Below, piece by piece: positions 25,578 through 43,580 of a DNA stretch of 64,000 nt. The notes below the pieces were generated by a model, which saw only the letters and a program-made list of their open reading frames with translations, was not told the origin of the DNA and made no database searches. Origin of the DNA: an uncultured Lachnospiraceae bacterium (lineage in GTDB: Bacteria > Bacillota > Clostridia > Lachnospirales > Lachnospiraceae); the NCBI GenBank assembly GCA_947628225.1, contig CANQYY010000004.1, positions 62,001 through 126,000 of the forward strand, read 5' to 3'. The translations under genes were made by a program, and so were the position numbers. Numbering within the stretch: position 1 is the stretch's first letter; each line of letters opens with the position of its first letter.

Positions 25578-26546
25578 CTATTTCTTATCCGGCTTTGCAT
25601 CATCCAGTATCTCCTGGATGGCAAACCGGGGCCTTGCCTTCGTTTCCAGATACATTTTTCCAATGTATTCGCCAATCAGCCCAATGGCAAAGAGCTGTAA
25701 TCCGCCCAACGCCCAGATAGACACCATAAGGCTGCTCCAGCCCAGAACCGTCGCACCCAGGTAATGGCGGACAATAGAATAAATGAGAATCCCCACGCTG
25801 ATAAGGAAAATCACCATGCCGAGAGATAAAATAAACCGGATGGGCTTTACACTGAACGATGTGATTCCATCGAAGGCAAAGGACAGCATTTTTTTCAACG
25901 GATATTTGCTTTCTCCGGCAAACCTCTCCTGCCTCTCATAGTAAACGGTATCCGAAGGATACCCAATAAGCGGCACTATGCCCCGTAAAAACAGATTGAC
26001 CTCCTTATACTGCTCCATCTGCTGTAACACCCGCTTACTCATCAGGCGGTAGTCCGCATGGTTAAATACAATATCTACCCCCATCCACTTCATAATTTTA
26101 TAAAATCCCTCAGCGGTAAATTTTTTAAAAAAAGAATCCTTCTTCCGGCTGCTGCGCACCCCATACACCACATCGATCCCGGCATTAAATTTATCTACCA
26201 TCTCATCTATGGCATGAATGTCATCCTGCAGGTCCGCATCCATGGAAATGGCGGCGTCGCAATGGTCTTTGGCATACATCAGTCCTGCCAGCACCGCATT
26301 TTGATGCCCGCGGTTTCTGGAGAGGTTTATTCCGCTCACGCAATCATATTCTTTATGAAATCCGGCAATCAGCTCCCAGGTCCGGTCTTTGGAACCGTCA
26401 TTGACATATAGGATGCGGCTTTTTTTACTGATTTCTCCCCGCTCCATCAGCCCATGGAGCTTCGGCACAAGCTGTCTGGTCGTTTCCTCCAGTACCTCCT
26501 CTTCATTATAACAGGGTATTACCATATATAGTATCTTCTTTCCCAT
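25578..26546 (-). CDS. Polyprenyl-phosphate glycosyltransferase, GT2 (DPM1/GtrB type)
   Basis: A 322-residue GT2 with N-terminus ILYMVIPCYNEEEVLEET, metal-binding ISMDADLQDD and a conserved RSSRKKDSFFKKF stretch, as in bactoprenol glucosyl- or mannosyltransferases. Two membrane segments lie near the C-terminus (about residues 228-250 and 262-285). It would make a lipid-linked monosaccharide on the cytosolic side for transfer outside. It is a single-gene unit with its own promoter. The convergent GT2-GtrA fusion may share the same lipid-linked sugar pathway. Confidence 0.9.
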   Translation of the reverse strand: MGKKILYMVIPCYNEEEVLEETTRQLVPKLHGLMERGEISKKSRILYVNDGSKDRTWELIAGFHKEYDCVSGINLSRNRGHQNAVLAGLMYAKDHCDAAISMDADLQDDIHAIDEMVDKFNAGIDVVYGVRSSRKKDSFFKKFTAEGFYKIMKWMGVDIVFNHADYRLMSKRVLQQMEQYKEVNLFLRGIVPLIGYPSDTVYYERQERFAGESKYPLKKMLSFAFDGITSFSVKPIRFILSLGMVIFLISVGILIYSIVRHYLGATVLGWSSLMVSIWALGGLQLFAIGLIGEYIGKMYLETKARPRFAIQEILDDAKPDKK

Positions 26547-26660: not shown

Positions 26661-26689
26661 TTGACTTTTCGCCCCGGAATCAGTATAGT
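26661..26689 (+). promoter_or_regulatory. Promoter of the CMP-ulosonate-type operon
   Basis: Plus strand TTGACT, 17 bases, TATAGT, about 67 bases before the TTG start at 26,756. It is the only promoter-like sequence I see before the four-gene plus-strand island. Confidence 0.65.
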
Positions 26690-26755
26690 ATAAAGTAGAT
26701 AATTGTGCATAGGAAATAGGTCCGATAACATGAAAATGGGGGAGGGAATTCTTCT

Positions 26756-28003
26756 TTGAAAAATAAAAGGCATTACAATCGTTATCAACATACGCTGGCA
26801 GTAGATGACCATATTATTATTTTTGAGTCGGAAAGCGGACAGGGATATACCGGCGGCGTCCGCGCCGTCTATAAAGCCTTACTGGACGATGAGGCATTCC
26901 GTCCCTTTTATTTTGTGTGGGCGTTTTCCGTCCCGGAGGATTTTAAATCTCTTTTAGCCAACCGCCATACCATTCTCGTGCGGAAGGGCTCTCCGGAATA
27001 TAAGAAATATTATGCCACAGCCCGCTACTGGGTGTTGGACGGCGCGGAGGGAGGGTTTCGCCCCGCCAAAAGCCAGAGGGTCATAAACGCCTCTTCGGAC
27101 GCAGACGTGGAAACCCTTATCGAAACCAGCTTTTCCACGACGCCCCACCGGATCCCGAAGTCGGAAAGACTGGTCCGCTATATCAGAAAAACATTAAACC
27201 GGATTCGTCTGGTCTACCTGATGGGCCGGTATAATCTTCTCGGGTTTTTCCGCTCCCGCGGCATGTTTCACAATAATAACAGCCTTCGTCTGGAGCGGCT
27301 GAAAAATTCCCATAAGGGAGAGCGCTGTTTCCTGATTGGAAACGGGCCAAGCCTTACCGGCGAGGATTTACATCTTCTGAATAATGAATATACTTTCGGC
27401 ACAAACATGGTTTATAAAATATTTGATAAAACAGACTGGCGCCCTACCTTCCACTGCGTATCTGATACGATTTACGCTTCGAAGCTGGGCTCTGAGCTTT
27501 CCAAAATGGTAAAGGCGCCTTTGTTTACTACAGAACGCACTTACCGGAGAATGAAGAAAAAACCGGTAGATACCACCTACGTCCACACGCTGCAGAGTGA
27601 GCGCTACCGGGTAAAGGGAAATATTCAGGCGTACTGCATGGTAAAGGCTACGGTGCTGTCTTTGGCTGCGGAAGTGGCATTCCATATGGGCTTTACCGAA
27701 ATTTATCTGTTAGGAGTGGATTGTACAAATCCCCATGATAAGGGAGGGCATTTTACCGACAATTATACGACAAAAGAAGTAGCAGAAACCGATATTAACC
27801 GAATTAAAACCCGTATGAATGCGCAATCCCTGACAACAGAGCAAATTGGCACGCACATTATTGACCGCTCGCTGGAGGTATATTCCCTGCTCAATAAATT
27901 CGCCGCCAAACATGGTATCCGTGTTTATAATGCGACACGGGGAGGGAATCTGGAGCTGTTCCCGCGGGTGAAGCTGGAGGATATTGTCAACAACAAAAAT
28001 TAA
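26756..28003 (+). CDS. TagF-like N-terminal region fused to DUF115/Maf-like domain
   Basis: A 415-residue protein starting at TTG (GGGGGAGGG site nine bases upstream). Residues about 19-97 resemble the N-terminal part of CDP-glycerol glycerophosphotransferases (IIFESESGQGYTGGVRAVYK, then ARYWVLDG), but the catalytic C-terminal half of that family is absent. From about 188 on it has a Rossmann-like domain with GERCFLIGNGPSL (GNGPSL at 195-200), then FHCVSD and LLGVDC at about 318-323. This pattern is shared by DUF115/MptE-like proteins, Maf flagellin glycosyltransferases and GT42 sialyltransferases. Being first in an operon with a CMP-ulosonate synthetase, it is a candidate CMP-sugar transferase. 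This role is inference. Confidence 0.75.
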   Translation: MKNKRHYNRYQHTLAVDDHIIIFESESGQGYTGGVRAVYKALLDDEAFRPFYFVWAFSVPEDFKSLLANRHTILVRKGSPEYKKYYATARYWVLDGAEGGFRPAKSQRVINASSDADVETLIETSFSTTPHRIPKSERLVRYIRKTLNRIRLVYLMGRYNLLGFFRSRGMFHNNNSLRLERLKNSHKGERCFLIGNGPSLTGEDLHLLNNEYTFGTNMVYKIFDKTDWRPTFHCVSDTIYASKLGSELSKMVKAPLFTTERTYRRMKKKPVDTTYVHTLQSERYRVKGNIQAYCMVKATVLSLAAEVAFHMGFTEIYLLGVDCTNPHDKGGHFTDNYTTKEVAETDINRIKTRMNAQSLTTEQIGTHIIDRSLEVYSLLNKFAAKHGIRVYNATRGGNLELFPRVKLEDIVNNKN

Positions 28004-28014
28004 CGGAGGCTTTT

Positions 28015-28758
28015 ATGAAGATTATTGGTGTAATCCCCGCCCGCTATAAATCCAGTCGTTTTCCCGGGAAACCGTTGGTTCCCATTTGCGGAAAACCTAT
28101 GATATACTGGGTTTACCGGCAGGCTGAGAAGGTAAAAGAATTTCATGCCGTATATGTGGCAACGGATGATGAACGCATCCGGGAGGTCTGCCTGCAATAT
28201 GACATGAACGTAATAATGACCTCGGACAAGCATGAAACCGGCTCCGACCGGGTGGCAGAGGTGGCATCCAGAGTGGACGGCGACTTGTTTGTCAATGTTC
28301 AGGGAGATGAGCCGGTCATTCAACCGGAGATGATCCGTCAGGTTATTTCTATTTTTTTGGAGGATGATTCCGTTTCTTTCGGCAGTCTGAAAAAAGAGAT
28401 CACTGACCCGGAGGAAATCCGGGCGGCCAGCACAGTAAAGGTTGTAACGGACGATAAGGGAGATGCCATGTATTTCTCCCGCTCCATTATCCCCTCCAAT
28501 CTCAAGGACGGAAAACAGGCAAAGGTTTTTCGCCATGTAGGAATTTATGCTTATAAAAAAGACTTTCTCCTGGCGTTCTCCAAAATGCCCCAAACCGAGC
28601 TGGAGCTGGGCGAAGGCATCGAACCCCTGCGCGCCATGCAGAGGGGCTATAAGATAAGGCTGAAGGAAACGCAATACTCTTCTATCGGAGTTGACCTGCC
28701 GGAGCATATTGAACGGGTGGAACGGGTGTTGAGGGGAGAGGAAACTCTGGATTCATAA
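28015..28758 (+). CDS. kdsB: CMP-3-deoxy-ulosonate cytidylyltransferase, KdsB-like
   Basis: A 247-residue nucleotidyltransferase that couples CTP to a 2-keto-3-deoxy sugar acid. The nucleotide-binding motif IPARYKSSRFPGKPL is at residues 7-21. The KdsB-type HETGSDRVAE is at 73-82 and VNVQGDEP at 93-100. These match KdsB (CMP-Kdo synthetase) better than NeuA-type enzymes. In Gram-negatives the product feeds LPS, but no lipid A or Kdo transferase gene is present and the rest of the window is Gram-positive. The actual acid may be Kdo or a relative. It starts 11 bases after the DUF115 gene with a GGAGG site and is followed after 16 bases by the aldolase. Confidence 0.88.
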   Translation: MKIIGVIPARYKSSRFPGKPLVPICGKPMIYWVYRQAEKVKEFHAVYVATDDERIREVCLQYDMNVIMTSDKHETGSDRVAEVASRVDGDLFVNVQGDEPVIQPEMIRQVISIFLEDDSVSFGSLKKEITDPEEIRAASTVKVVTDDKGDAMYFSRSIIPSNLKDGKQAKVFRHVGIYAYKKDFLLAFSKMPQTELELGEGIEPLRAMQRGYKIRLKETQYSSIGVDLPEHIERVERVLRGEETLDS

Positions 28759-28774
28759 ATTAGGAGATGAAAAA

Positions 28775-30403
28775 ATGAAACGAGTAAATATATTAGACTG
28801 TACTCTGAGAGATGGAGGCTATCTGGTGGACAGCCAGTTTGGCAATACCGCTATCAAGGGTATTCTCCGGGGGCTGACAGAAAGCGGCGTGGATGTTATC
28901 GAATGCGGTTTTTTGAAGGATGAACCGCACAAAAACGGCAGCACCTCCTTTAATCATGCCTCCCAGATCCGCCGTTATCTTCCGGAAGACAGGAAGAACG
29001 CTTCCTATGTCTGCCTTGCGGATTATAGCCGCTATACTATTGATAATCTGGAGCCCTTTGACGGCACTTCCATTGACGGGGTCCGAGCCTGTTTTTTTAA
29101 GAATGAACGGTATAAGGTAATCGATTTCTGCCGCGGCATCACGGAACGCGGCTATAAGCTTTATGTACAGCCGGTAGATATACTCGGTTATACGGACGCC
29201 GAGCTCTTAGAACTGATTGATATGGTAAATGAGCTGGAGCCCTATGCCTTTTCTATTGTGGATACTTTTGGCTCCATGTATAAGGAGGATCTGCAGCGGG
29301 TATTTTTCTTAATCCATCACAATTTATGCGCCGGCGCCAAGATCGGTTTTCACTCCCACAACAATCTGCAGATGTCCTTTGCCCTTTCCCAGGAATTTAT
29401 CGAAATGACACAGGGGCTCCGCCATGTTGTCATCGATACCGCAATGGCAGGTATGGGCCGGGGCGCGGGCAATACCAATACCGAATTAGTCATGCAGTAT
29501 ATGAACCGCAAGCACAACAGCGGATACGATATTGACAGTCTGCTGGATTTGATCGATAACTATGTGGACGGCTTCCGCAGCCAGTCGGAATGGGGATACT
29601 CCATTCCCTATTTTCTCGCCGGCTCTTACAGCGCCCATGTAAACAATATTTCTTACCTATCCACGAAGGCAGGCATTGCCAGCCGGGATATTAATTATCT
29701 GCTGAACCGCCTTGGTTCCGTGGACAGAAAACGCTATGATTATGACCTGCTGGAAAAAATTTATATGGAATATCTCGGCTCTATCTGCGACGATAAAGAG
29801 CAGATGAACCATTTACAAGAACTTTTGGGCGGAAAGGATATTCTGATATTGCTTCCGGGACATTCTATTGTCACTCACAAGACGGAGATTGATGAATATT
29901 ACCGCGAAAAGAAACCGGTTGTTATCAGCGTCAACCTTCTCTCCCATGATTATCCGATTAATTATGCCTATTTCAGTAATAAAAACCGTTACCGCTATTG
30001 GAAGAGCGCCACTCACTTTAAGGAGTACAAAAAAATCGTGACTTCCAATGTGACGACGGAAACAGATAAGGATCAGTTTGTGATAGACTTTACCCGCCTG
30101 ATAAAATGCGGCTGGGAGCAGTTGGATAACTCCGGTATCCTACTTTTACGCCTGTTGGATCTGCTGAAGGTAAAAAGTATTGCCATTGCCGGTTTTGACG
30201 GCTATAACCATAATGCCGGCCACCAGAACTATGTACAAAAGGATATGGAGAAACAGAGGAATACCTTAAATGCGGCGGAGGCAAACCAGGATATTTCCAG
30301 TATGCTGAAAGACTATATGAATACGAGAAAATCCCATTGTCCGGTAACCTTTATTACGCCGTCTTTATTTGAATCGATTGTCACGGGAGGAGAAAATGAG
30401 TAA
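28775..30403 (+). CDS. HMGL-like aldolase fused to a DUF115-like C-terminal domain
   Basis: A 542-residue protein. Residues about 1-300 form a DRE-TIM metallolyase domain like 4-hydroxy-2-oxovalerate aldolase: LDCTLRDGG at 7-15, metal ligands in GFHSHNN (His193, His195) and the GMGRGAGN glycine loop at about 226-233. Such aldolases join or split pyruvate and an aldehyde. Residues about 350-540 form a second domain with ILILLPGHSI (PGHS at 361-364), YAYFSNKNRY and IAGFDGYNHN. These line up by eye with GNGPSL, FHCVSD and LLGVDC of the gene two places upstream. The protein could make the 2-keto-3-deoxy acid that KdsB activates. The fusion and role are inference. Confidence 0.78.
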   Translation: MKRVNILDCTLRDGGYLVDSQFGNTAIKGILRGLTESGVDVIECGFLKDEPHKNGSTSFNHASQIRRYLPEDRKNASYVCLADYSRYTIDNLEPFDGTSIDGVRACFFKNERYKVIDFCRGITERGYKLYVQPVDILGYTDAELLELIDMVNELEPYAFSIVDTFGSMYKEDLQRVFFLIHHNLCAGAKIGFHSHNNLQMSFALSQEFIEMTQGLRHVVIDTAMAGMGRGAGNTNTELVMQYMNRKHNSGYDIDSLLDLIDNYVDGFRSQSEWGYSIPYFLAGSYSAHVNNISYLSTKAGIASRDINYLLNRLGSVDRKRYDYDLLEKIYMEYLGSICDDKEQMNHLQELLGGKDILILLPGHSIVTHKTEIDEYYREKKPVVISVNLLSHDYPINYAYFSNKNRYRYWKSATHFKEYKKIVTSNVTTETDKDQFVIDFTRLIKCGWEQLDNSGILLLRLLDLLKVKSIAIAGFDGYNHNAGHQNYVQKDMEKQRNTLNAAEANQDISSMLKDYMNTRKSHCPVTFITPSLFESIVTGGENE

Positions 30404-30902
30404 GGATTTAACAAAAATCCGTCTTTTTGCCATGGACGTAGACGGAACGCTGACAGACGGAAAAATTTATATAGGAGAAAACGGCGAGGTAATGAAAGCC
30501 TTTGACCCGAAGGACGGTCTGGGCATTAAGCTTCTTATGAAGTATAATATCCTGCCGGTCATCATTACCGGCAGAACTTCCCGGATTGTCACAAACCGCT
30601 GCCGGGAAATCGGCATTACGGAAATTCATCAGGGGATTAAGGACAAAGGATTAAAATTAGAAGAGCTGATAAAGCAATATCAGCTCTCGAAAGAAGAAGT
30701 CGCCTATATCGGCGATGATGTTAATGATTTGGGCGCCATGCAGCATGCCGGCATCACCTTTGCTCCGGCTGACTGCGCCAGACAGATACTGCCCTATGTG
30801 GACATTCTTTTGACCAGACGCGCCGGAGAGTCGCCGGTACGGGAAGCGGTTGATATGATTTTGGAAAACCGGTTTTTAGCGGAGGATTTTGCGGACTGGT
30901 AA
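30396..30902 (+). CDS. kdsC: KdsC-like HAD phosphatase
   Basis: A 168-residue small HAD-superfamily phosphatase. DVDGTLTDG at residues 14-22 is the KdsC/NeuC-linked variant of the HAD motif I, ITGR lies at about 57-60, and GDDVND at 106-111 is motif IV. The length equals KdsC, which removes the 8-phosphate from Kdo-8-P and works as a cap-less tetramer. The ATG at 30396 has a GGGAGGAG site and overlaps the aldolase stop by eight bases, showing tight coupling. Its presence hints that the aldolase product, or its aldehyde precursor, is phosphorylated. It ends 15 bases from the convergent cytidylyltransferase gene. Confidence 0.88.
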   Translation: MSKDLTKIRLFAMDVDGTLTDGKIYIGENGEVMKAFDPKDGLGIKLLMKYNILPVIITGRTSRIVTNRCREIGITEIHQGIKDKGLKLEELIKQYQLSKEEVAYIGDDVNDLGAMQHAGITFAPADCARQILPYVDILLTRRAGESPVREAVDMILENRFLAEDFADW

Positions 30903-30917: not shown

Positions 30918-31628
30918 CTACTCCTCTTTCTCCAGCAAAAACGCCTCTGCCACCCGCAAATCATACGGGTATGTAATTTTAATATTAAATACTTCCCCCT
31001 CTACAATGTGTACTTTTTCCCCTTTCATCACAAAGATTTTTGCCGCATCGGTGAGAAGATTCTTCTCTTCTTCTGAGAGCGACTCATACAGCTTTTTCAG
31101 CTTCAGCGCCTGAAAGCTCTGAGGGGTCTGCCCCTGATACATCTTTTTCCGCTCCGGAATATCATGGATAAGTACCGCATCATTGCTGCATACGATCGTA
31201 TCGGTAGCCGCTACAGCGGTATCGCAGGCGCCGTACTCCTTTGCATATTTTATATTCTCTTTTATTATACGCTCTGTCACAAAAGGGCGCACGGAATCAT
31301 GGGTCACAATAATCGTATCTTCCTTCAACCCGTAATTTTGTTCAATATAAGAAATGGAATTCATGATCGTTTCATTTCTGGTCGCGCCCCCTTCCAAAAC
31401 GACAACCCGCTCGGAATCCTCCATATATTTTTTGACCAGATTTTTTGTGTGGGCAATCCACTCTTTCGGACAAAGCACAAGGACCTTTTCAAATTCCTTT
31501 TCATCATAAAATTTTTTCAACGTATGGATCAGAATCGGCTTATCCCCTACCAGCAAATATTGCTTCGGTTTTCCCACATTTCCCATACGGCTTCCGATTC
31601 CTCCTGCTAAAACAACTCCAAAAATCAT
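30918..31628 (-). CDS. IspD/TarI-type cytidylyltransferase, extra copy
   Basis: A 236-residue cytidylyltransferase with LAGGIGSRMG at residues 8-17, the THDSVRPFV stretch and the C-terminal IKITYPYDLRVAE. It is closely similar along its whole length to the TarI-like protein at 40,151-40,867, more than either is likely to be to IspD (methylerythritol route). It would activate ribitol 5-phosphate or a similar polyol phosphate with CTP. It is the last gene of a minus-strand run starting with the TarL-like gene. It has no adjacent TarJ reductase, so a different polyol phosphate is possible. Confidence 0.85.
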   Translation of the reverse strand: MIFGVVLAGGIGSRMGNVGKPKQYLLVGDKPILIHTLKKFYDEKEFEKVLVLCPKEWIAHTKNLVKKYMEDSERVVVLEGGATRNETIMNSISYIEQNYGLKEDTIIVTHDSVRPFVTERIIKENIKYAKEYGACDTAVAATDTIVCSNDAVLIHDIPERKKMYQGQTPQSFQALKLKKLYESLSEEEKNLLTDAAKIFVMKGEKVHIVEGEVFNIKITYPYDLRVAEAFLLEKEE

Positions 31629-39119: not shown

Positions 39120-40145
39120 TTATTTTTCCCAAATCATAATGGTCTTTCCAAATGCCTTCTGTATATCCAGTTCAAACGCTTTCTTCATATCGTCAATTGT
39201 CCTGACGGTTACCAGTGTACCAACGATGTTTGACAAATAATTGACAACCTCAGGGTTATTCCGGTAGATTTCCACCGTTTTCACAAAATCATCCCGTCCG
39301 CTGCGGCTGCTGCCAAAAATGCGCAGGCCTTTTTCCAAAACCATTCTGGTATAGATTGGAACCGGATACTCGGATACTCCTAAAATCGATATGGTGCCTT
39401 CCGGTTCAATTCTGTCAATAATCTGTTCAATCGCCTTTCCGGAGCCGGCTCCTCCCACGCATTCAAAGGCGTGGTCTATTTTCAGATCCGCCGGAATCTG
39501 CTCCACCGTGTAAATGCCGTCGGCAAAGGTAAAGTCTGACAGCTTGTCCCGGCTCATGCCAAAAATATACAGTTTGGTATCCGGAAACATCGTCTTAAAA
39601 AAGACAGCCGTAATATAGCCGAGATTACCATCTCCCCATATTCCTACCGCTCTCCTTCTCTTATGCGCTATCGCATCAAAGCGTCCAATGGCATGGACGC
39701 TCACGCTGACAATTTCAGTAAAGGCGGCCACTGTCTTATCTATCCCTTCCGGCAGGCGGACCAGCCTGTCCTGCCGGATGTTTACATATTCCTGCATAAA
39801 ACCGTCAAAGCCGCTGGCGCGGAACTTGCTGGAGCGGCGGTAATTTTCGGCGATGATCTCATCTTCCTCTACCGGCGTATTCGGTATCATAACAACGGTT
39901 TCTCCCGGGCGGAATTCGCCGGAAGGATCCCGGATTACTTCTCCGATCGCCTCATGGATCAGCGCCATCGGCAGTTTCTTCTGCAGCACTGCCGCCTCCC
40001 GCAGTCCCTGATAATATCGCTGGTCCGCATTGCAAATAGAAAGATGCGTGGGACGGACCAGTGCCTCGTTGCTGTCCAGACGGATATTTCCATATATGAT
40101 TTCAAATTTTCTTGGGGCTACCAACTGATAGATCGTATTCAGCAT
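39120..40145 (-). CDS. tarJ: Ribulose-5-phosphate reductase, TarJ-like
   Basis: A 341-residue zinc-type medium-chain dehydrogenase that reduces ribulose 5-phosphate to ribitol 5-phosphate for CDP-ribitol synthesis. TarJ-type features are the N-terminal MLNTIYQLVAPRKFE, the LSICNADQRYY stretch and a nucleotide-binding WGDGNLGYITA at about residues 170-180 (GxGxxG type). It starts six bases after the tarI stop, with its GGAGGAG ribosome site inside tarI. The tarI-tarJ pair and the TarL-like gene next to it define a ribitol-phosphate teichoic acid unit. Confidence 0.92.
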   Translation of the reverse strand: MLNTIYQLVAPRKFEIIYGNIRLDSNEALVRPTHLSICNADQRYYQGLREAAVLQKKLPMALIHEAIGEVIRDPSGEFRPGETVVMIPNTPVEEDEIIAENYRRSSKFRASGFDGFMQEYVNIRQDRLVRLPEGIDKTVAAFTEIVSVSVHAIGRFDAIAHKRRRAVGIWGDGNLGYITAVFFKTMFPDTKLYIFGMSRDKLSDFTFADGIYTVEQIPADLKIDHAFECVGGAGSGKAIEQIIDRIEPEGTISILGVSEYPVPIYTRMVLEKGLRIFGSSRSGRDDFVKTVEIYRNNPEVVNYLSNIVGTLVTVRTIDDMKKAFELDIQKAFGKTIMIWEK

Positions 40146-40150
40146 ATCCT

Positions 40151-40867
40151 CTACTCCTCCGACTGTCTGCTCCGGATCAATGACTCTGCCACGCGCAGAT
40201 CGTAAGGGTATGTTATCTTAATATTAGATACCTCCCCTTCTGCCAGGCAGACGTTTTCCCCTTTCATCACAAATATTTTTGCCGCATCGGTCAAAAACTC
40301 CTTTTCCGACTCGGATAAAGTATCATACAGGCGTTTCAGCTTTTTAATCTGAAAAGTCTGGGGCGTCTGTCCCTGATACATCCGGCTCCTTTTGGGGATA
40401 GCCGAAATATTCTGACGGTCTTCGCTCTCCACAATAGTATCGGTTGCCGGGATTACCGTATCGCAGGCGCCGTATTTTGTTGCATATTTTATATTTTCCT
40501 CTATGATCCGGTGGGTCACAAAGGGACGCACGGAATCATGGGTTATGATAAGGTCTTCCTCCGACAATTCATAGCGGCTTTCCAGCCAGCGGATGGCGTT
40601 CATAATCGTATCGTTTCTGCTGGAACCTCCTTCGCAAACTGCAACCCGGTCTGTTTCTCCGATATACCGGCACACCAGATCCTTTGTATATTCCAGCCAT
40701 TCCTTCGGACACAGCACAAGGATTTTTTCCAACTGGTAATGGATATAAAATTTTTCCAGCGTATGGATCAGAATCGGTGTGCCCGCAAGCTCCAGATACT
40801 GCTTCGGCTTTTCTTTATTTCCCATCCGGCTTCCGCTGCCGCCGGCCAATACTGCTGCAAATACCAT
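40151..40867 (-). CDS. tarI: Ribitol-5-phosphate cytidylyltransferase, TarI-like
   Basis: A 238-residue cytidylyltransferase that makes CDP-ribitol from CTP and ribitol 5-phosphate. The CTP motif LAGGSGSRMG is at residues 8-17, with the lysine-rich KPKQYLELAG next. THDSVRPFVTHRIIEENI and IKITYPYDLRVAES follow. It is paired with tarJ and lies 14 bases after the TarL-like gene. It is clearly paralogous to the protein at 30,918-31,628. Confidence 0.92.
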   Translation of the reverse strand: MVFAAVLAGGSGSRMGNKEKPKQYLELAGTPILIHTLEKFYIHYQLEKILVLCPKEWLEYTKDLVCRYIGETDRVAVCEGGSSRNDTIMNAIRWLESRYELSEEDLIITHDSVRPFVTHRIIEENIKYATKYGACDTVIPATDTIVESEDRQNISAIPKRSRMYQGQTPQTFQIKKLKRLYDTLSESEKEFLTDAAKIFVMKGENVCLAEGEVSNIKITYPYDLRVAESLIRSRQSEE

Positions 40868-40881
40868 ATCCGTTTTCCTTT

Positions 40882-43533
40882 CTAATCCTCGATCAACGCC
40901 TGATATAAACGTTCCGTCTGTTTATTATCCTTATAGAAAAAGAAATCTTTCATCCTGTCGGCATATTTTTTCTCCGGCTGACAGCCATTTTTCATAATCC
41001 GATCCAGCGCGTCCACTGCTTCTTCGGCGGTAAGCGCCAAATCGCCAAACGCATCCTCGAAGGGGATGTCGATTTCCCGGTAGTCGTTCATGCCCGCGCG
41101 GAACATTTCCTCGTCCGGCAGAAAATAGATAATCGGGCGTTCCAGATAAACAAAATCAAATACGAAGGATGAAAAATCCGTCATAAAGACTTTATACTGC
41201 GTTTCTGATATTTTGCTTTCCGCCATGGTCACACGGCTGTTCGTAATATGATACAGATGCTTATACCGCTCTAAGATCGGATGAAGCTTAAAATCCAGGT
41301 AAAAATCCTTGTCCTCCAAAATCTTTTGCAGCTTCTCACTGTTCAGGAAGCGGCTTGTTTCTTCATAAAAGGCGGAATCCAAAAATTTCCCTTCGGTTGT
41401 CACCCACTCGCTTCCCACCATTCCCACCAGATATTTCCGCCAGGAAGGCGCAAATAAAATCCGGTTTACTGATTTTTCCTTTACATCTATATAATCATAT
41501 CTCGGCATACCGCACGGAATCAGTGCATCTTCGGTAAAGCAGTAGTTGTTTATCAAATTTTCTTTCTCATAGTGAGTTGAGATAACTTCCTTGTCCACGC
41601 ACAGACGATCCAGGGAATACTTCCACGGCACATGGGCATGCAATACGCCGTGCTGAAGATAAATCAGTTCCGGCTGATTGCTTACGTCAATAAATTTCGG
41701 CAGCCGCTTATGCGGAATCGGCGCATAATTATTAGGCTCGATAAATGCCGTAATGATTTTACGGGCTTTTAAATACAGATATTTATGAAGCCAGCCGCCA
41801 AACCGTATCATATGTTTCCTGTACTTTTTCGGGAATTTCTTTTTTGCCTGACGGAACTGTTCCTCATTAATCACATAATATCTTCTTACCCCGTCTTTTT
41901 TCTCAGTATCGTGGACAAACTGATAATACCCGTTGTCCTGTTTTACTCCTTTACAGTCATGGTAAAGCCATACATTATCGTACCGCTTTATCCTGTGCAT
42001 GCATAAATTCCGGAACAGCCACATTTTCCGGTTGGATTTTTTGTAGCGGTTACGGATCACCTTACGGTTTTCTGCTAGCTTACCGGGCTTTGCCTTACTG
42101 ATAGTAAATCTCCCCGGATTGGTGATAAACTGGTATTCCTTCCCATCCTGATAGTATTCATACCGCTTGAAAGCATGGCTGAAAATTACCCGGGGCATGA
42201 AATAATAGGAGCACTCATACAGCCGTCCCGCCGCCTTAACCTGAAATTCAAAGCTGAATACTTTTTTTGTGTCAATTTCCAAATCAAACAGCCAGAAATT
42301 ATTGGTCTTTGTCTTAGCGCGGTAATAGCTCCAGGAAGACAGGCGCAGATCAATTTGTTTCGGATTCCCATAATTGCCGTTTTCAATCATGTAGAGCTCC
42401 GGTTTGTCCAGATAATTGAACAGAGCCGCCTTGATAAAAGCAAGAAATTGTATTTTATTTCCTTTTACCTTGAATTTAAGCAGGATAATCTCAATTTTCT
42501 TTGTTTCATATACCACCTGGTCGTGGTTGGTAACTACAATTTCATTCGGACCGGTTATTACCTTTATATCCGTGTCATCCTTCATGCTGATATAATACTG
42601 GCGGTGGAACCCATCGACGCTGGGATGCCGCAATATTACCTCGTCGTCTACCTTGTTCAAAAGATTTCTTATCCGGCTCTTTGCCTTTTCCAGTTCTTCT
42701 TTCTTATAATGATACGGCAGGAGAATATCGCTGCAGGTCTTCCAGCTGATGTCGTTTAAATACATCGCCTGAATATAGTATGGAACATCTTTTCCATCAT
42801 AATACGCAAAAATATCCTCCCAGAATTTCATTGTCTTCTCAAAGATATAATAAGCGTAAAAGAAGGTTCTCACAATACTCTGCGGCTGATGCACATAATA
42901 ATAGACGCCTTTGTCGCAATAACCGATTTTCATTTTTTCCCGTACCACTTCAATACAGTATTTCTGGTCTTCATGCCGGAAATTGCGGTCCGGGTCAAAT
43001 AATATATTATCCTTGCCCAGATTTTTTACACAAACGTTCACTCTTGTCTGGGAAATAAAGGCATTTTTTTCCAGTGTCAAATCATATACCCCGGAATGGG
43101 TCAGCGTTTGGAAACGGTAATGAGGAGTTCCTTCTTTTCCTGCAATTAAGGGAATTTCTTTATAAGTGACCAAATCTACCTCATCGTAGTGCTTGTCAAA
43201 GAAATCCGTCACGCTCTTTACGGTTTCCGGGGACAGGGTATCATCCGCATCAATATACATAATATACTTTCCCTTTGCCCGTTTGATACCGTAATTTCGG
43301 GTAGGAGATAAGCCTTCGTTTTCTTTGCGGTAAATGGTTATATTGGAATGCTTCGCTGCATATTTTTCCATAATTTCAATAGAATTATCCGGCGAACCGT
43401 CATCAATCAGCATGATTTCCATTTCCTCCGGAGAAATGGTCTGGTTTACCAGAGAATCCAGACATCCGGCAAGAAATTCCTCCATGTTATATATGGGAAC
43501 AATCATCGTGACTTTATACTCAAAACTGTCCAT
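40882..43533 (-). CDS. GT2 fused to CDP-polyol phosphotransferase, TarL/TagF-like
   Basis: An 883-residue two-enzyme protein. Residues about 1-320 are a GT2 domain (TMIVPIYNMEEFLAG, IDDGSPDNS, IDADDTLS). A middle beta-rich part follows. The C-terminal 380 residues are a CDP-glycerol/ribitol phosphotransferase domain with LIYLQHGVLHAH near residue 620, SWRKYLVG and TDFSSFVFDFVYLERPI. It probably polymerises ribitol phosphate and adds a sugar to it. The ATG at 43533 has a GGAGG site; the longer ORF start is not needed. It heads the tarI-tarJ run. Confidence 0.9.
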   Translation of the reverse strand: MDSFEYKVTMIVPIYNMEEFLAGCLDSLVNQTISPEEMEIMLIDDGSPDNSIEIMEKYAAKHSNITIYRKENEGLSPTRNYGIKRAKGKYIMYIDADDTLSPETVKSVTDFFDKHYDEVDLVTYKEIPLIAGKEGTPHYRFQTLTHSGVYDLTLEKNAFISQTRVNVCVKNLGKDNILFDPDRNFRHEDQKYCIEVVREKMKIGYCDKGVYYYVHQPQSIVRTFFYAYYIFEKTMKFWEDIFAYYDGKDVPYYIQAMYLNDISWKTCSDILLPYHYKKEELEKAKSRIRNLLNKVDDEVILRHPSVDGFHRQYYISMKDDTDIKVITGPNEIVVTNHDQVVYETKKIEIILLKFKVKGNKIQFLAFIKAALFNYLDKPELYMIENGNYGNPKQIDLRLSSWSYYRAKTKTNNFWLFDLEIDTKKVFSFEFQVKAAGRLYECSYYFMPRVIFSHAFKRYEYYQDGKEYQFITNPGRFTISKAKPGKLAENRKVIRNRYKKSNRKMWLFRNLCMHRIKRYDNVWLYHDCKGVKQDNGYYQFVHDTEKKDGVRRYYVINEEQFRQAKKKFPKKYRKHMIRFGGWLHKYLYLKARKIITAFIEPNNYAPIPHKRLPKFIDVSNQPELIYLQHGVLHAHVPWKYSLDRLCVDKEVISTHYEKENLINNYCFTEDALIPCGMPRYDYIDVKEKSVNRILFAPSWRKYLVGMVGSEWVTTEGKFLDSAFYEETSRFLNSEKLQKILEDKDFYLDFKLHPILERYKHLYHITNSRVTMAESKISETQYKVFMTDFSSFVFDFVYLERPIIYFLPDEEMFRAGMNDYREIDIPFEDAFGDLALTAEEAVDALDRIMKNGCQPEKKYADRMKDFFFYKDNKQTERLYQALIED

Positions 43534-43580
43534 AGTAACCTCCGTAATTACCAAAAATTACATTTTTACATACTCTTTAA

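Follow-up and report, generated by a model that had tools for sequence, protein, structure and literature searches.

The stretch of DNA considered here (the window) comprises 64,000 nucleotides of contig CANQYY010000004.1 from an uncultured Lachnospiraceae bacterium, whose genome (G000; 2.28 Mb) is 99.9% complete. It carries a cassette of four intact open reading frames (ORFs) on the plus strand, spanning positions 26756-30902 and tightly packed between minus-strand neighbours, which we have studied as a candidate pathway for an acidic surface sugar. The genes encode a putative cytidine monophosphate (CMP)-ulosonate transferase of 415 aa (26756..28003), a KdsB-type CMP-ulosonate synthetase of 247 aa (28015..28758), an HMGL/DmpG-type aldolase of 542 aa with an additional C-terminal domain (28775..30403) and a KdsC-type phosphatase of the HAD family, 177 aa as listed (30369..30902), for which an in-frame internal ATG at 30396 is a likelier start. 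The intergenic distances are 11 bp and 16 bp, followed by an overlap. An earlier reading of this DNA, made from the letters alone (the original prediction), had named four tightly spaced genes of these families, and the intact ORFs, the family scans and the retention of the block in more than ten related species all agree with it; it had missed a TagF/TarF half-domain in the first gene and the C-terminal domain of the aldolase. It had also placed a promoter ahead of the genes, and a consensus scan finds a σ70-like TTGACT-17-TATAGT on the plus strand exactly there (26661..26689), which is a consensus match and not a proof. For comparison, 15 loci of public genomes were examined, along with some 70 regions from other Firmicutes. 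The relatives retrieved through the aldolase are nearly all Lachnospiraceae, and the nearest species keep the gene order transferase, KdsB, aldolase, KdsC, while in one locus (L019) a NeuA/PseF-type transferase stands in the place of KdsB.

The canonical pathway to 3-deoxy-D-manno-oct-2-ulosonic acid (Kdo) runs through KdsD, KdsA, KdsC and KdsB, and to our knowledge every known CMP-activated ulosonic acid is made by a phosphoenolpyruvate (PEP)-dependent synthase, i.e. KdsA, NeuB, PseI or LegI. The cassette shares the KdsC-type phosphatase and the KdsB-type synthetase with the Kdo pathway, but it lacks KdsA and KdsD. Neither is found elsewhere in the genome: the KdsA model TIGR01362 has no match in it, its sole protein of the 3-deoxy-D-arabino-heptulosonate 7-phosphate (DAHP) synthase family (PF00793) is AroFGH, and no protein reaches the TIGR00393 cut-off for KdsD. 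Low-scoring matches to PF00793/TIGR01362 and to PF03102 in relatives were also considered, and are consistent with DAHP synthases rather than with KdsA or NeuB. Among 397 Lachnospiraceae genomes the aldolase occurs in 94, KdsB in 36 and KdsA in 9. The kdsA gene adjoins KdsB in four of the 36 KdsB genomes, and the aldolase is found in 31 of the 32 KdsB genomes without such linkage (hypergeometric P about 1e-20, uncorrected for kinship); it lies within about 8 kb of KdsB in 30 of these 31, and on a separate contig in the last (G526). In the 39 genomes that hold both the aldolase and a CMP transferase, KdsD above the cut-off is absent from all and KdsA is present in one (G742), while 16 have neither KdsA above the cut-off nor a true NeuB; TIGR00393 scores above its cut-off in three kdsA genomes only. 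None of the 88 aldolases examined has a NeuB nearby. Canonical clusters do exist in this family: in L191-L195, which belong to members of the Lachnospiraceae and one more distant Firmicute, kdsA, mostly together with kdsD, lies beside KdsB or KdsC, and this shared setting beside KdsB/KdsC provides a parallel to the position of the aldolase. An MptE/DUF115 transferase stands alongside in two of the Lachnospiraceae clusters, as it does in the cassette, and a Gram-positive kdsA island has been described in Bacillus coahuilensis (PMC4744853).

The aldolase consists of an HMGL domain (about residues 1-330; PF00682, 71 bits) and a C-terminal domain (about 347-542). The closest sequence to the N-domain in the PDB is 3dxi (E=7.5e-24), i.e. 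BVU_2661 of Bacteroides vulgatus, a 'putative aldolase' of which only the N-domain has been solved, followed by the DmpG-type aldolases; a Foldseek search with the AlphaFold2 model likewise returns DmpG-type aldolases at E about 1e-10. Since the full-length model is of low confidence at 224-329, we restrict its interpretation to the well-modelled parts. The DmpG-type aldolases clearly outscore the Claisen synthases as matches of the N-domain (89 versus 37 bits), but the protein stays below the cut-off of the DmpG-type family (89 versus 229 bits) and below that of the 4-hydroxy-2-oxovalerate aldolases (TIGR03217; 76.5 versus 286 bits). Like the class II pyruvate aldolases DmpG and BphI it has the HMGL fold with an Arg-Asp and His-x-His metal site: R12, D13, H193 and H195, and likewise E43, N197, D221 and H288, are conserved in 75-76 of 76 two-domain aldolases. 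It differs from them in having no dehydrogenase partner, a Tyr for His21 and the extra domain, and in that it would work in the synthetic rather than the degradative direction. The C-terminal domain, when modelled alone (pTM 0.84), gives weak fold matches to SteA and HPPK; its profile finds SteA at E=0.046 and nothing else among the PDB sequences, and is related to DUF115 in a profile comparison (93%). As most viral members of the family either lack this domain or have KdsB in its place, we regard it as an accessory domain of the HPPK/DUF115 superfamily and not a glycosyltransferase. A role as a second CMP-sugar transferase was considered and dropped, as the domain is retained in loci of the thiamine diphosphate (ThDP) type described below, which lack a CMP transferase. 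A second, single-domain HMGL aldolase paralogue is encoded elsewhere in the genome (L070, C1:230783-231475), alone among genes of the opposite strand.

The partner genes of the aldolase indicate what kind of product it may make. In 72 of 76 two-domain aldolase loci there is one, and only one, partner whose substrate would be a 2-oxo acid, namely KdsB (32), a NeuA-type transferase (16) or an acetolactate-synthase-like ThDP enzyme (24). The three contexts never overlap (chance 5e-16, ignoring kinship), and in three of the remaining four loci KdsB lies 6-8 kb off. The genes are immediate -1/+1 neighbours in about half of the loci, and a quick tree implies at least nine partner changes, of which three switch between a CMP and a ThDP partner. 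A 2-oxo acid, such as a pyruvate aldolase makes, would serve either kind of partner as a substrate. Furthermore, about two dozen ORFs of 537-589 aa from viral contigs join the N-domain of the aldolase and a KdsB-type cytidylyltransferase in a single polypeptide (in most of L141-L149, L151-L160, L163-L165, L168, L169, L171-L175 and L178), of which 24 fusion domains were aligned; in the three fusions tested, the NCBIfam models for KdsB and for 4-hydroxy-2-oxovalerate aldolase match the respective halves. Other viral contigs carry the two genes adjacent and unfused. The fusions constitute Rosetta-stone evidence that both enzymes act in sequence.

The synthetase of the window matches CTP_transf_3 and KdsB, the latter above the equivalog cut-off (TIGR00466, 189.7 bits versus 155.2). 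The catalytic residues R10, K19, D100, R157 and D239 of KdsB are conserved in all 34 aldolase-linked KdsBs; Lys19 and the two Asp have been discussed previously (PMC3149649). For the Kdo site we used the residue numbering of a secondary source (PMC12058783, Table 2; template 3DUV), in which one of the six residues, K74, mismatched the numbering used. The window KdsB retains the other Kdo-site residues tested (Q98, R157, H185, Y189 and E214), but the equivalent of the Kdo-contacting Gln215 is Pro204. Gln215 is absent from 34/34 aldolase-linked KdsBs and from 23/23 readable fused ones, and present in 3/3 kdsA-linked KdsBs and in four of four structures. The phosphatase scores above its family cut-off (TIGR01670, 156.6 bits versus 106.95) and has the DxDGxLT motif. 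Taken together, the loss of Gln215 and the lack of KdsD suggest that the acid is a relative of Kdo instead of Kdo itself.

The product of the first gene combines a C-terminal MptE-like/DUF115 domain (PF01973, 43.5 bits) with a partial Glyphos_transf (TagF/TarF-like) N-terminus, which covers positions 3-102 of the 367 of PF04464. The corresponding gene is much longer in L007 and L011-L015, and in L007, the one scanned, it encodes a full TagF/TarF-like domain plus DUF115, so that the 415 aa protein appears to be a shortened form retaining DUF115. The window and four relatives show an in-frame loss of most of the TagF/TarF-like domain that leaves DUF115, and L018 has the DUF115 domain on its own. 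A DUF115 profile built from these loci matches the sialyltransferases CstII (1ro7, E=1.7e-8) and CstI, as well as 5mu5 (E=8e-5), which we take to be a Maf protein; the family has a GNGPSL motif and a conserved Asp/His. At the level of sequence, then, DUF115 is homologous to the GT42 sialyltransferases, and these matches, together with the polysialyltransferase homologues in sister loci, make a CMP-ulosonate transferase the natural reading of the first gene. In the forms with a complete TagF domain, a bifunctional polymerase that alternates polyol phosphate and ulosonate is possible. Polysialyltransferase-like proteins (PF07388) recur in aldolase/KdsB loci (L090, L112, L114-L117, L119, L123, L124 and L126), and so does, in the same loci, a protein family some 700 aa long in which a small HAD-like match is seen.

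On these grounds we propose, with a probability of roughly 0.78, that the cassette makes and attaches a 3-deoxy-2-ulosonic acid, Kdo- or sialic-acid-like, without a PEP-dependent synthase. The HMGL domain would carry out a metal-dependent aldol reaction of pyruvate with a phosphorylated aldose from central metabolism, yielding the phosphate of a 3-deoxy-2-ulosonic acid; the KdsC-type phosphatase would strip the phosphate; the KdsB-type enzyme would activate the acid with cytidine triphosphate; and the DUF115/GT42-like protein would move it from CMP to a wall polymer of the ribitol-phosphate type or to a polysaccharide. The KdsC and KdsB steps would pull the aldol reaction, which is reversible, towards synthesis. 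Arabinose 5-phosphate made by KdsD is probably not the aldehyde, and the acid may be Kdo but is more likely a relative of it. This proposal rests on the lack of KdsA and KdsD, the fusions, the phylogenetic profile, the conservation of the neighbourhood, the GT42 homology of DUF115 and the active-site residues of the aldolase. The substitution of an aldolase for KdsA/NeuB, followed by KdsC, KdsB and DUF115, is the part of the original prediction that comparative genomics strongly supports; its simple Kdo version fits poorly with the lack of KdsD and the loss of Gln215. The proposed route shares CMP activation and a GT42/Maf-related transferase with the nonulosonate pathways (NeuB/LegI/PseI, NeuA/PseF), and in some relatives of the cassette also the NeuA-type transferase; unlike those pathways, it has no linked NeuB-type synthase, would rely on aldolase chemistry and, given KdsC, implies a phosphorylated intermediate. 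We found no description of this gene set in the literature searched, as the original prediction had supposed; few subscription journals were covered, so novelty is not proven. If the proposal is true, the same class of surface sugar is made by a different chemistry, the presence of KdsB in many gut Firmicutes that lack kdsA is accounted for, and abundant gut bacteria are expected to have undescribed acidic sugars in their wall polymers. With the aldolase-KdsB fusions, both enzymes could readily be tested in a single protein, and the aldolase family could be used as a biocatalyst on pyruvate instead of PEP.

Several observations weigh against this proposal. The genome does encode a NeuB, a single one on contig C12 without linkage to the cassette, and, adjoining an apparent flagellin gene, a PseF-like transferase; the genome G631 has a KdsB homologue (C23:58545-59228) but lacks both kdsA and the aldolase at the cut-offs applied; and one third of the aldolase family lies beside a ThDP enzyme, without a CMP transferase. 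The equivalent of His21 of DmpG, the catalytic base of that enzyme, is Tyr16 in this family, so that the chemistry could differ. Finally, given the altered Kdo pocket of the aldolase-linked KdsBs, the acid could lie outside the usual ulosonic kind. The NeuB and the PseF-like transferase, along with the canonical kdsA clusters in nine of the 397 family members, might be taken to mean that an ordinary Kdo or nonulosonate pathway operates with a KdsA- or NeuB-type synthase encoded elsewhere, the linked aldolase being degradative or unrelated. We consider this very unlikely, in view of the missing KdsA and KdsD, the sixteen sister genomes that pair the aldolase with a CMP transferase and have neither KdsA above the cut-off nor a true NeuB, the lack of a NeuB near any of the 88 aldolases, and the aldolase-KdsB fusions. 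The original prediction had supposed that no kdsA or neuB elsewhere would show conserved linkage to these genes; kdsA is indeed missing, the NeuB on C12 has no such linkage, and the cassette persists in sister genomes that have no NeuB.

In a narrower version of our proposal, the aldolase would combine pyruvate and arabinose 5-phosphate into Kdo 8-phosphate itself, a non-homologous enzyme thus standing in for KdsA while the Kdo pathway is otherwise normal. A KdsB that passes the equivalog cut-off and retains Q98, R157, H185, Y189 and E214, and a phosphatase with an intact KdsC motif, would suit it, but the lack of KdsD above the cut-off in all 39 aldolase/CMP genomes, the loss of Gln215 in all linked and readable fused KdsBs and the replacement of KdsB by a NeuA-type transferase elsewhere make it improbable, if still worth considering. 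We give little credence to a Claisen-type enzyme (isopropylmalate- or homocitrate-like, using acetyl-CoA) or a phosphonomethylmalate-like synthase, with CMP loaded onto a non-sugar acid or a phosphonate: the HMGL superfamily does include such synthases, and CMP-activated phosphonates are known (PMC6697681), but DmpG-type aldolases are the better matches, and the KdsB/NeuA and GT42-like partners work on ulosonic acids. The phosphonate route in particular was rejected, as the genome has no PEP mutase above the cut-off. Many modules are mixed in glycan loci, and the aldolase, KdsB and KdsC might thus be crowded together by chance and share no pathway; the conserved order, the immediate neighbourhood in about half of the loci, the fusions and the genome-level association (P about 1e-20) refute this as a sole explanation, and we regard it as next to impossible.

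The original prediction had described the aldolase route as a CMP pathway of Gram-positives, which turns out to be too narrow, as the route extends to viral contigs and members of the aldolase family also appear to work in a second pathway, alongside a ThDP enzyme and genes for CDP-dideoxy sugars. A two-domain aldolase adjoins a ThDP enzyme in most of L078-L082, L094-L100, L102-L110, L122 and L130, and such clusters, none of which is found in the window, can hold RfbF (glucose-1-phosphate cytidylyltransferase), RfbH and epimerases. Here the acid would lose its carboxyl group and be coupled to a CDP-4-keto sugar, giving a branched sugar; these clusters possibly represent an unreported route to branched higher-carbon CDP-sugars. 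In having such a ThDP enzyme they resemble the YerE-type ThDP carboligase branch of CDP-dideoxy-sugar clusters; the known YerE acts on pyruvate itself, without an aldolase. We see a somewhat better than even chance that the aldolase family, modular with KdsB, NeuA or ThDP partners, constitutes a second general route to activated 2-ulosonic acids, in which pyruvate and sugar phosphates are the direct precursors of new acidic or branched sugars, including so far undescribed sugar acids, in Gram-positives and viruses. In the viral loci L132-L139 a 341 aa aldolase adjoins genes for proteins of about 600 and 450 aa, which match a ThDP enzyme and RfbH by size and are possible homologues of the ThDP context.

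The cassette lies in what its gene content indicates to be a ribitol-phosphate wall-polymer or capsule locus. It is flanked on the minus strand by a gene at 25578-26546 and by a TarI-like D-ribitol-5-phosphate cytidylyltransferase (30918..31628; NF001183, 363.8 bits versus a cut-off of 166). Further along the same strand are a medium-chain dehydrogenase (39120..40145; ADH_N, 42 bits), called TarJ-like from its position and length and kept beside the cassette in the relatives L006-L017, a second D-ribitol-5-phosphate cytidylyltransferase (40151..40867; NF001183, 363 bits, same cut-off) and a polymerase that combines glycosyltransferase-2 and Glyphos_transf domains (40882..43554; PF00535 and PF04464). 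Other surrounding genes encode a LicD protein, a Bac_transf initiating enzyme and YfhO. The two cytidylyltransferases are paralogues within a single locus.

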